From: Pseudomonas frederiksbergensis
Lineage (GTDB): Bacteria > Pseudomonadota > Gammaproteobacteria > Pseudomonadales > Pseudomonadaceae
Length of the DNA stretch: 64,000 nucleotides
Assembly: GCF_035751725.1 (NCBI RefSeq)
Contig: NZ_CP142104.1
Span: 4,464,001-4,528,000 of the forward strand
Reading direction: 5' to 3'
Position 1 is the first letter of the stretch; each line of letters opens with the position of its first letter. The position numbers and the translations under genes were made by a program. Shown here piece after piece: positions 44,557 to 47,983 of this stretch. The notes under the pieces were generated by a model. That model did not search any database, was not told the DNA's origin, and saw only the letters and a program-made list of their open reading frames with translations.

Positions 44557-45792
44557 TTATTGCAACCCGGCAAGCCGGGCTTCGATAAACCGCCGCTCCG
44601 GCAACTGCTGCGTCAATTCAAGCGCACGTCGATACGCCGCCCTCGCCTCTTCCACCCGCCCGAGCTGTCGACAGAACTCCGCCCGCGCCGAATGGGCCAG
44701 GTGGTAGTCGTCCAGATCGCCCCGGCCGAGTATTCCATTGACCAAACTCAACCCAGCCTGCGGCCCGTCGCGCTTGGCGAGGGCGGCCGCGCGGTTGAGT
44801 TCGATGACCGGCGAAGGCAGTGCACGCAGCAGCACATCGTAGAGGCCGACGATCTGCGGCCAGTCGGTCTCCTGCGCTGTCGGCGCTTCGGCGTGCACCG
44901 CAGCGATCGCCGCTTGCAGGCAATAAGGTCCGAACCGCCGGGTATTGAGCGCGGCCTCGACCATGGCGCAACCCTCGGCAATCATTGCCTGATCCCACAG
45001 CGATCGGTCCTGCTCATCCAATAAAACCAGCTCACCGGCCATCGACATCCGCGCCGGTCGCCGCGATTCGTGCAACAGCATCAACGCCAGCAACCCCATG
45101 ACTTCGGCTTCCGGCAACAGCTCCACCAGCAGGCGCGCCAGGCGTATGGCTTCGCGGGTCAGGTCTTCGCGGATCAACTCGGCGCCCATCGACGCCGAGT
45201 ACCCCTCGTTGAAGACCAGGTAAATCACGCGCAGGACACTGTCGAGTCGTTCGGGCAATTCCGTGCGGGACGGCACCTGGTAGGGAATCTTCGCATCGCG
45301 GATCTTCGCCTTGGCCCGCACGATGCGCTGGGCAATGGCCGCTGGCGCGGCAAGAAAGGCGTGGGCGATCTCCTCGGTGGTCAGGTCACACACTTCACGC
45401 AGCGTCAGCGGCACCTGCGCGTCAGCCGCCAGGGCCGGGTGGCAACAGGTGAAAATCAGCCGCAGGCGATCGTCCTCCACGTCTTCATCACTCCACTCGG
45501 CCTGCTCCAATGCCTCGATCTGTGCAATCAACATCGGCTGCGACGCCACGAAGCGCGCCCGCCGACGCAGGCTGTCGATCGCCTTGAAACGCCCGGCCGA
45601 TACCAGCCAGGCCCGCGGATTGTCCGGTACTCCGTCGCGCTGCCAGCGCTCGACCGCGATGAAGAAGGCCTCGTGCAGGGCTTCTTCAGCGAGGTCGAAA
45701 TCCCCCAGCAGGCGAATCAAGGTTGCCAGGATTCGCCGCGAGTCCTGCCGGTAGACCTGCTCGACCCGTGCCTTGACCGCTTCGGCCGACAT
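44557..45792 (-). CDS. ECF sigma factor of the ECF42 type with C-terminal TPR-like extension
   Basis: 411 residues from the ATG at 45790-45792 (MSAEAVKARVEQVYRQDSRR); a TTG 16 codons upstream has no ribosome binding site. Sigma region 2 spans ~15-85 (DFDLAEEALHEAFFIAVERW, NPRAWLVSAGRFKAID), region 4 ~115-175 (LTLREVCDLTTEEIAHAFL, AIAQRIVRAKAKIRD). A ~230-residue C-terminal extension ends in a TPR-like helical repeat (YHLAHSARAEFCRQLGRVEEARAAYRRALEL). This is the ECF42 layout, always found with DGPF (YCII) proteins and without an anti-sigma factor, exactly as here. The extension is required for activity in studied members. Last of a three-gene leftward set. Confidence 0.9.
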   Translation of the reverse strand: MSAEAVKARVEQVYRQDSRRILATLIRLLGDFDLAEEALHEAFFIAVERWQRDGVPDNPRAWLVSAGRFKAIDSLRRRARFVASQPMLIAQIEALEQAEWSDEDVEDDRLRLIFTCCHPALAADAQVPLTLREVCDLTTEEIAHAFLAAPAAIAQRIVRAKAKIRDAKIPYQVPSRTELPERLDSVLRVIYLVFNEGYSASMGAELIREDLTREAIRLARLLVELLPEAEVMGLLALMLLHESRRPARMSMAGELVLLDEQDRSLWDQAMIAEGCAMVEAALNTRRFGPYCLQAAIAAVHAEAPTAQETDWPQIVGLYDVLLRALPSPVIELNRAAALAKRDGPQAGLSLVNGILGRGDLDDYHLAHSARAEFCRQLGRVEEARAAYRRALELTQQLPERRFIEARLAGLQ

Positions 45793-45884: not shown

Positions 45885-46229
45885 TCAGACATTCAGTTGG
45901 CGTACCGGCCGGACCTCGACGCAGCCAACCCGGGCCGCCGGTATGTTGCCGGCGACCTGGATGGCTTCGTTCAAGTCCTTGGCGTCGATCAGGTAGAAGC
46001 CCGCCAGTTGTTCCTTGGTTTCGGCGAACGGGCCGTCGGTGATCGACAGCTTGCCGCCGCGCATGCGCACCGTGGTGGCGGTCTGCACCGACTCCAGGGC
46101 TTCGGCCGCAACCATCCGGCCGCTGCGCTGGATCGATTCGGCGTAGTCCATGCACTCGGCGTCCTCGGGACTGTCCGCCGAGTTATGCAGGACCTGTTCG
46201 TTGCTGTAAACCAGGCATAAATACTTCAT
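45885..46229 (-). CDS. YCII/DGPF-domain protein
   Basis: 114 residues from the ATG at 46227-46229 with GGAG upstream. The text MKYLCLVYSNEQ and ITDGPFAETKEQLAGFYLID contains the DGPF motif after which this YCII-related group is named. The ferredoxin-like fold may carry a small enzymatic or ligand-binding site; its biochemical role is unknown. DGPF genes are the diagnostic neighbours of ECF42 sigma factors. It lies 92 bp before the sigma gene and 56 bp after the SnoaL-like gene. Confidence 0.9.
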   Translation of the reverse strand: MKYLCLVYSNEQVLHNSADSPEDAECMDYAESIQRSGRMVAAEALESVQTATTVRMRGGKLSITDGPFAETKEQLAGFYLIDAKDLNEAIQVAGNIPAARVGCVEVRPVRQLNV

Positions 46230-46285: not shown

Positions 46286-46720
46286 TCAGGGCTGCAGGTC
46301 GAAAATCGCTGTCCCGGCCATCGGATCGAACGGCGCCGACCAATGCTCATGGACGATTTTCCACTGCCCAGCCGAACGCTTGTAGCAGGCCGTCACGCGC
46401 ATCCAGCAGGCCTGTTCCTCGCCTTTTTCGTTGGTGCCACCGCAATAGGCCAACCAATGGGCGAACGCAATGTCATCAGCCGCGCTGATCTGGACCTGGT
46501 GAAAATCGAACTTGTGCGGGCCCGGGCACATCTCCATGCAGGCCTCCCAGTGAGCCTGGTAGGCGACCTTGCCCTTGAATTGCAGGGCCTGGATGGCATC
46601 GAATGAAACAATGTCGTCGGCATACAGCGCCATGACCTTCTTCACGTCCTTGGCCATCACGGCTTGGCGATAAGTGTCGATCAGCGTCTGGATTTCGGTT
46701 TCGGCAGCTTGGGTATTCAT
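46286..46720 (-). CDS. SnoaL-like (NTF2-fold, YybH/DUF4440 type) protein
   Basis: 144 residues from the ATG at 46718-46720 with GGAG at the right distance. The NTF2-like pattern is clear: ETEIQTLIDTYRQAVMAKDVKKVMALYADDIVSFDA at the N-terminus, then CWMRVTACYKRSAGQWKIVHEHWSAPFDP in the last third. Such cone-shaped barrels often act as isomerases, hydrolases or binding proteins; substrate unknown. First gene of the leftward ECF42 set, directly after the palindromic TGTCGA promoter, so likely the main sigma target together with the DGPF gene. Confidence 0.85.
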   Translation of the reverse strand: MNTQAAETEIQTLIDTYRQAVMAKDVKKVMALYADDIVSFDAIQALQFKGKVAYQAHWEACMEMCPGPHKFDFHQVQISAADDIAFAHWLAYCGGTNEKGEEQACWMRVTACYKRSAGQWKIVHEHWSAPFDPMAGTAIFDLQP

Positions 46721-46756: not shown

Positions 46757-46784
46757 TGTCGATTGGAGAAACGGCAAATCGACA
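46757..46784. promoter_or_regulatory. Self-complementary ECF42-type promoter between divergent genes
   Basis: On the plus strand TGTCGA (46757-46762), 17 bases, CGAC (46780-46783). On the minus strand TGTCGA (46784-46779), 17 bases, CGAC (46761-46758). Both match the ECF42 target pattern as I recall it (-35 TGTCGA, -10 CGA(T/C)). The outer arms TGTCGATT and AATCGACA are an exact inverted repeat, so one element can serve both the SnoaL-DGPF-sigma set and the GNAT-PPOX pair. Confidence 0.65.
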
Positions 46785-46861
46785 GCTAAACAAAAATAAT
46801 CCAAAGAAAAAATTTCGCTAGAATCCAAGGTCCATTCTGTCAGCAAACAACGGACGTTTTC

Positions 46862-47377
46862 GTGACCGCTCAGCTCGTACCTTATGAAGACCTGACCCCG
46901 CTGCAACGGCAACAGGTCGAATCCATCGAAATCCACCCCGAACAAATCAAATTCTCCGGCGACATCCACGGTGCGCTGCACACGTTGCTGTCCAAGCCCG
47001 GCCCAGGGGTCAAGGGTTTCGCGCTGTTGGCCGGCGAAGTGCCGGTGGCCTTCCTGCTGCTCAAGCGTCCGCCCGTGCTGCCGGCCTGGGCCGACGAGCA
47101 CAGCGCGACCCTGCACGCCTTGCAAGTCGACCATCGCGCCCAGGGCAAAGGCTACGGCAAGGCCTGCCTGCAAGCGCTACCCGCCGCGGCTCGCGCGGCG
47201 TGGCCGGAAATCAAGGGACTGGAGCTGTCGGTCGATGCGGACAACGACTCGGCCATTGGTCTTTATACCCGGCTGGGCTGGGTCGACAGCGGAGAAGCCT
47301 ACAAGGGCCGCATCGGTTATGAACGGCGGATGGGCTTGGTGTTCCAGCCAGACGAATCTGCCGCCGGGGAGGCCTGA
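46862..47377 (+). CDS. GNAT-family N-acetyltransferase
   Basis: 171 residues from a GTG at 46862. The acetyl-CoA-binding motif A is ALQVDHRAQGKGYGKACLQAL (~83-103, Q/R-x-x-G-x-G), followed by LELSVDADNDSAIGLYTRLGWVDSGE (~120-145), the standard motif B. The substrate cannot be inferred. It starts ~80 bp after the ECF42-like palindrome on the opposite side of the sigma-factor set, and is separated by only 3 bases from the next gene, so the two form an operon that may belong to the same sigma regulon. Confidence 0.85.
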   Translation: MTAQLVPYEDLTPLQRQQVESIEIHPEQIKFSGDIHGALHTLLSKPGPGVKGFALLAGEVPVAFLLLKRPPVLPAWADEHSATLHALQVDHRAQGKGYGKACLQALPAAARAAWPEIKGLELSVDADNDSAIGLYTRLGWVDSGEAYKGRIGYERRMGLVFQPDESAAGEA

Positions 47378-47380
47378 ACC

Positions 47381-47983
47381 ATGTTGACATCGATTGAACA
47401 ACTGGAAGCCATCTACGGCCAGCCCCATGAACGGGCAGTACGCAAACAGATCCCTTTTCTCAACGAGGATTACCAGGCGATGGTCCGGGCCTCGCCAATG
47501 GTGGTCATCGGCTCGGCAGGGCCGGATGGCCTGGACAGTTCGCCCCGTGGCGACGCACCGGGTTTCGTGCAGATCCTCGACGAACACACCTTGGCGCTCC
47601 CCGACCGCCCGGGCAATAACCGCATCGACACCCTACGCAACGTTCTTCATGACCCGCGGGTGTCGCTGCTGTTCATTATCCCCGGGATCGGCGAAACGTT
47701 GCGAGTCAACGGCAGCGCGCGCGTCAGCGCCGAACCCGAGCTGCTCGAGCGCTTCGCAGTCGATGGGAAGCTGCCTCGCACGGTATTGCTGGTCACGGTC
47801 GAAGCGGCATTTTTTCATTGTTCCAAGGCCATCGTGCGCTCGCAGCTGTGGAACCCGGAGCGCCACCTTGATCGCTCGACAGTCCCTAGCGCCGGAGCGA
47901 TCCACAAGCGTCTGGATGAGGGGTTCGATGCCGAGGCCTACGACCGCGAGACACCTGCCCGGGTGCAGGCCAGCCTATATTGA
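47381..47983 (+). CDS. Pyridoxamine 5'-phosphate oxidase-family FMN protein
   Basis: 200 residues from the ATG at 47381, three bases after the GNAT stop. It has the split-barrel flavin-binding fold: MVVIGSAGPDGLDSSPRGDAPGFVQILDEHTLALPDRPGNNRIDTLRNVLHDPRV-type text spans ~40-94, and FFHCSKAIVRSQLWNP (~145-160) is typical of the MSMEG_1061-like subgroup. These proteins are F420- or FMN-dependent oxidoreductases or flavin binders and not the vitamin B6 enzyme. Role unknown; the link to the ECF42 set suggests a stress function. Confidence 0.85.
   Translation: MLTSIEQLEAIYGQPHERAVRKQIPFLNEDYQAMVRASPMVVIGSAGPDGLDSSPRGDAPGFVQILDEHTLALPDRPGNNRIDTLRNVLHDPRVSLLFIIPGIGETLRVNGSARVSAEPELLERFAVDGKLPRTVLLVTVEAAFFHCSKAIVRSQLWNPERHLDRSTVPSAGAIHKRLDEGFDAEAYDRETPARVQASLY

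Follow-up and report, generated by a model that had tools for sequence, protein, structure and literature searches.

A palindromic element before a SnoaL-YCII-sigma operon of Pseudomonas frederiksbergensis probably acts as a one-way ECF42-type promoter, with the divergent GNAT gene served by a candidate promoter of its own

The ECF42 group of sigma factors is exemplified by RpoE10 of Sinorhizobium meliloti, Sven_0747 of Streptomyces venezuelae and ECF-10 of Pseudomonas putida, and the motif used in Streptomyces reportedly consists of TGTCGA and CG[AT]C. ECF42 proteins carry a TPR tail, for which control by protein interaction has been proposed (PMC8999054). In S. meliloti, three promoter sequences associated with RpoE10 read TGTCGG-17-CGTC; the motif overlaps the mapped start of the YCII-rpoE10 operon, and overexpression of RpoE10 did not raise that operon (PMC6180224). 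Promoters that fire in two directions have been described in Escherichia coli, where the two directions share a -10 element and the commonest distances between the starts are 18, 10 and 23 bp (PMC12825309).

The window analysed here, the whole stretch of 64,000 nucleotides from the P. frederiksbergensis contig NZ_CP142104.1, contains three genes on the minus strand in the order SnoaL-like protein (46286..46720; Pfam SnoaL_3, 1.1e-17), YCII (DGPF) protein (45885..46229; Pfam YCII, 7.7e-25) and ECF42-type sigma factor (44557..45792, the ATG at 45792 being an assumed start in a frame open from 45840). Pfam searches place Sigma70_r2, Sigma70_r4_2 and DUF6596 above their cut-offs in the sigma factor, and the TPR models are significant while falling just under theirs (E 5.6e-6 and weaker), so that sigma regions 2 and 4 are followed by a long C-terminal DUF6596/TPR-type extension. 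The YCII/DGPF gene stands beside the sigma gene here and near it in most relatives examined. On the plus strand, a GNAT acetyltransferase gene (46862..47377; Pfam Acetyltransf_1, 2.1e-11) is followed by a PPOX-type flavoprotein gene (47381..47983; NCBIfam TIGR04025, 1.2e-79); since only some of the GNAT loci showed a PPOX relative next to GNAT, the two genes do not seem to form a fixed unit. The relatives of the window belong to Pseudomonas, and P. frederiksbergensis SI8 has a SnoaL protein identical to that of the window and the same motif in the gap.

The gap between the SnoaL and GNAT genes contains TGTCGATT at 46757-46764 and AATCGACA at 46777-46784, which are exact inverted repeats 12 bp apart. 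As the initial annotation had observed, these arms allow TGTCGA-17-CGAC to be read on each strand, on the plus strand at 46757-46783 and on the minus strand at 46758-46784. Leftward, the -35 TGTCGA occupies 46779..46784 and the -10 CGAC occupies 46758..46761 of the minus strand, with a spacer of 17 bp, and the CGAC is 37 bp from the SnoaL ATG (46720); rightward, the CGAC is 78 bp from the GNAT GTG (46862). The distances of about 30 and 70 bases to the two start codons that had been given earlier agree with these values on the assumption that transcripts begin about 7 bp beyond the -10. The annotation went further and suggested that the element may be one ECF42 promoter firing in both directions, which would have added the GNAT-PPOX pair to the regulon; the two halves of that claim fared differently.

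The leftward half was followed in three partly overlapping sets of loci. The 149 genomes sampled from the genus contain 90 places that encode a close relative of SnoaL at E up to 1e-40, and all 90 were examined; 22 weaker rows or fragments were left out. With a pattern that itself required TGTCGA-17-CGAC, an exact site was found before SnoaL in 76 of the 90 loci, exactly those where SnoaL comes ahead of YCII; the same loci were also scanned with a looser pattern at spacings of 13-21, which found only 17 and no near misses. The remaining 14 loci, which have no site before SnoaL, comprise 13 with YCII upstream of SnoaL and one in which no YCII was found; further upstream, seven of the 14 have a site before YCII and three have no sigma match, and in the other four no site was found, YCII lying outside the stretch fetched. 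In some Pseudomonas loci (L219-L231) the order is sigma, YCII and, further on, SnoaL, with an ECF42 site before YCII and downstream of sigma; in L227 another stands 44 bp before sigma. A second, named set, consisting of the best 80 of 113 relatives, overlaps the genus set and was counted separately; TGTCGA and CGAC occur at 17 bp in all 80. Within the spacer, GCC close to the -10 is well conserved, and an inner TGGC-N5-GCCA inverted repeat is present in part of the GNAT clade (e.g., L016, L031 and L034).

The wider set reaches beyond close relatives. With a threshold of E 1e-60, 59 of 299 genomes of the phylum contain a sigma relative. Part of these matches supplied 74 loci, and 11 of the 14 genus loci with no site before SnoaL brought the set to 85, within which L134 and L223 cover the same place; not included were three further loci with no sigma match, and also L129 and L130, which stand for the window and for a genome that the genus set already contained. 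A search of the 20-200 bp preceding YCII, SnoaL or sigma yielded TGTCG[AGT]-17-CG[AT]C ahead of the operon in 68 of the 85 loci (72 sites altogether) and no site within that distance in the other 17. The same search yielded 0-3 loci at each spacing of 10-16 and 18-25, and three loci with the two elements in reversed order. The -10 reads CGTC in 43 of the 72 sites and CGAC in 29. The sixth base of the -35 co-varies with it: G occurs only with CGTC (21 sites), T only with CGAC (6), and A with both (23 CGAC, 22 CGTC). Taken together, a TGTCG-type -35, a CG[AT]C -10 and a fixed spacing recur before the operon, and the assignment of the leftward element as an ECF42-type promoter for SnoaL-YCII-sigma, as first proposed, is strongly supported by the 76 genus loci and the 68 wider ones.

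Counts of the bare motif carry less weight. The window has four matches to TGTCGA-(15-19)-CGAC against a shuffle mean of 0.85; in the whole genome (6.0 Mb, a single contig), TGTCGA-(16-18)-CGAC matches 57+61 times against 42+42 for the reversed control, which makes the motif weak evidence by itself. Drawing a genome-wide regulon from the loose motif was given up, the motif being too common. Among the matches listed of these 118, seven places can be read in either direction, two of them at 17 bp, and of these two the one other than the window element overlaps open reading frames. A tighter pattern, TGTCGAT-16-CGACNA, has four genome matches against none in the control, namely the SnoaL operon, a place before a glyoxalase/VOC-type gene, L239, and L240, which falls inside open frames. 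The site before the glyoxalase/VOC-type gene, TGTCGATCTTCCCCTACGTCATTCGACTA (L241 1501-1529, corresponding to C1:3348007-3348035 of the same genome, minus strand), stands about 100 bp before that gene, which is likely another target of the same sigma factor. A plasmid search with the SnoaL-GNAT gap as query gave no match, nor did a literature search for an ECF sigma factor with a divergent palindromic promoter.

The rightward half of the claim did not hold in the alignments. The test proposed with it was whether both copies of TGTCGA, and both of CGAC, persist in the same gap of related genomes. The leftward TGTCGA is exact in all 76 site-bearing genus loci, of which 56 have a divergent GNAT and 20 do not; at the rightward position (46757..46783, plus strand, the same base pairs), the hexamer in the 56 GNAT-divergent loci is AGTCGT in 33, AGTCGA in 11, TGTCGT in 5, AGTCGC in 4 and GGTCGT, AGTCGG and TGTCGA in one each, the single TGTCGA being that of the window. 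Rightward TGTCGA likewise occurs in one of the best 80 of 113 named relatives, a locus whose SnoaL protein is identical. Selection has thus not kept the elements of the two directions together. In each of the 20 genus loci with no divergent GNAT the rightward hexamer reads GGTCGA, so that a partly symmetric TCGAC arm is not tied to the presence of GNAT on the other side. The four site-bearing loci among a further 20 GNAT loci, described below, read AGTCGA, AGTCGA, AGTCGT and GGTCGA.

A true two-way promoter, with one site firing in both directions and GNAT-PPOX joined to the ECF42 regulon, would account for the perfect symmetry in the window and for the preservation of CGAC and of the 17 bp in the rightward direction. 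The kept rightward letters, GTCG and CGAC, are however already fixed by the leftward promoter, being the same base pairs as its -10 and -35, and their preservation needs no rightward function. Closer relatives give this reading somewhat more: in the 19 closest named loci (among the best 80 of 113) the hexamer is TGTCGA in 1, TGTCGT in 15, TGTCGC in 1 and GGTCGT in 2, so that the first T of the rightward -35 is kept, as TGTCG[ATC], in 17 of the 19. The two GGTCGT exceptions are L274, in which the 5' part of GNAT is lost, and L278, in which GNAT is intact. In other genera of the phylum, six ECF42 sites have TGTCGT as their -35, and, together with the kept T, this makes a weak rightward start possible in the clade of the window, which consists of P. 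corrugata/brassicacearum-type species with a backward -35 that is mostly TGTCG[AT]. There is an outside chance that the ECF42 polymerase starts weakly backwards at many quasi-symmetric CGAC promoters and that GNAT could gain a second, sigma-dependent promoter in this clade; such backward starts, if real, would represent a recently arisen two-way promoter in which an entire -35/-10 pair is used in both directions.

The palindrome itself does not call for a second direction. Since GTCG and CGAC are reverse complements, any ECF42 promoter of the CGAC type shows nGTCGn-17-CGAC on the other strand, and all that the two-way claim adds to this consensus symmetry is the first T and the final A of the second TGTCGA. 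Outside loci serve as controls: in L138 and L140, TGTCGAAT-12-ATTCGACA before YCII-sigma is a palindrome as perfect as that of the window (8 bp), and the upstream neighbour in L138 is a YqeY gene that runs in the same direction and ends before the site; the upstream sequence of L140 is closely similar and comprises the 3' end of a co-directional gene. A palindrome of this kind therefore needs no divergent gene, which counts against the two-way promoter. L136 (273-358) contains two separate ECF42-type sites back to back, one of them, with CGTC, before YCII, and the other before a small divergent open frame, its CGAC lying 34 bp from the ATG; this frame looks like an ECF42 target, and it has a separate site. 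The second site is a 6-bp palindrome in L136 and L137 and is degenerate in L141. Across the 56 aligned gaps, complementarity is found at arm pair 1 in 6 loci, at pair 6 in 12 and at pair 7 in 23; only these low counts are used, the invariant left arm leaving the column expectation empty. At arm pair 8, whose left side does vary, 40 of the 56 loci are complementary where the columns predict 31.5, an excess that perhaps reflects one clade-level change. Judged from these alignments, the apparent origin of the symmetry is the ECF42 consensus (GTCG/CGAC) with private substitutions added.

The alignment of the 56 gaps also revealed signals on the GNAT side. TAGAAT (46819..46824, plus strand) resembles the -10 box of a promoter belonging to GNAT and has no recognisable -35. 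It is exact in 51 of the 56 loci, four of the other five having TAGACT, TAAACT or TAAAAT, and it is lost in one, L013, a locus that has an intact ECF42 site and lacks the 5' part of GNAT. In a search that also admitted near variants, it was found in 79 of the best 80 of 113 named relatives, the exception being L274, whose ECF42 site is intact. A block around TCGCTAGAATCCG before GNAT is conserved as well, and an A/T tract, AAAAATAAT (46792..46800), lies between the two promoters and is a possible UP-like contact for either side. A consensus scan before GNAT found no sigma-70 -35/-10 pair, for which reason only a -10-like box is claimed; a missing -35 can be compensated by an AT-rich spacer (PMC12825309). 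Twenty additional GNAT loci were chosen among a larger number of genomes with no close SnoaL; one of the twenty has a SnoaL remnant. Four of these loci have an ECF42 site and 16 have none, and in eight of the 16 a TA[GA]A[AC]T box stands 37-42 bp before GNAT; the other eight lack such a box too. The A/T tract also occurs in two GNAT loci with no ECF42 site (L163 and L164). Where measured, the ECF42 and GNAT promoters are 33-37 bp apart.

A GNAT box conserved with and without the ECF42 site makes two separate back-to-back promoters the simplest reading. GNAT thus appears to have its own start signal. This separate box, added to the single full rightward copies in the alignments and the palindromes beside co-directional genes, leaves the two-way promoter improbable. 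Slightly less probable again is that TAGAAT is some other conserved site and no promoter, GNAT being transcribed by read-through or from the ECF42 site; the lack of a -35 partner and the absence of the box from half of the GNAT loci with no ECF42 site speak for it, but the box stands about 40 bp before GNAT with or without an ECF42 site and disappears along with the GNAT 5' end. Least probable by a clear step, and set aside, is the idea that the dyad between the divergent units serves a repressor or some other dimeric regulator as its operator, the pattern of kept arms at varying spacing that the initial annotation had named as the counter-case to its own: an inverted repeat does lie within a divergent gap and arm pair 8 has its weak excess of complementarity, but the spacing is constant, the arms do not stay complementary outside the promoter cores (pairs 1, 6 and 7), and at the CGTC majority of the wider sites the inverted repeat is lost while the element stays.

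The element is, with high probability, a one-way ECF42 promoter, with GNAT transcribed from its own back-to-back promoter; conservation, asymmetry, fixed spacing and the GNAT box present where there is no ECF42 site are the sequence evidence on which this rests. On the minus strand, TGTCGA (46784-46779) and CGAC (46761-46758) would be the elements that the TPR-tailed sigma factor (44557-45792) recognises, and transcription of SnoaL, YCII and the sigma factor's own gene would begin at about 46751, which implies a putative autoregulation. Such autoregulation would not be general, since S. meliloti RpoE10, in the account of its operon cited above (PMC6180224), did not raise its own operon. GNAT, possibly with PPOX, would be transcribed from the TAGAAT promoter, whose box lies some 35 bp past the ECF42 -35. 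The palindrome would arise because the cores are reverse complements when the -10 is CGAC, this genome adding T and A at the flanks.

The comparison thus decides which half of the two-way reading is likely real, namely an ECF42-type promoter widely kept at a spacing of 17. With a palindrome that comes largely from the consensus, caution is advisable in calling dyads of ECF42 regions operators or two-way promoters, and the set of ECF42 sites with its split between CGAC and CGTC can be used for regulon prediction.

The domain make-up of the sigma factor is that described for ECF42 (PMC8999054, PMC6180224), and the locus resembles ECF42 systems in the long C-terminal TPR-type extension, the TGTCG-type -35 and the CG[AT]C -10. 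As in S. meliloti, the sigma gene stands beside a YCII gene; unlike the RpoE10 promoters given in that source, which have CGTC, the -10 is CGAC, making the cores reverse complements (PMC6180224). With the E. coli bidirectional promoters the element shares pseudo-symmetric DNA able to bind polymerase both ways; it differs from them in that the whole -35/-10 pair would be reversed, which would place the starts about 40 bp apart, and in that rightward use finds no support in conservation (PMC12825309).
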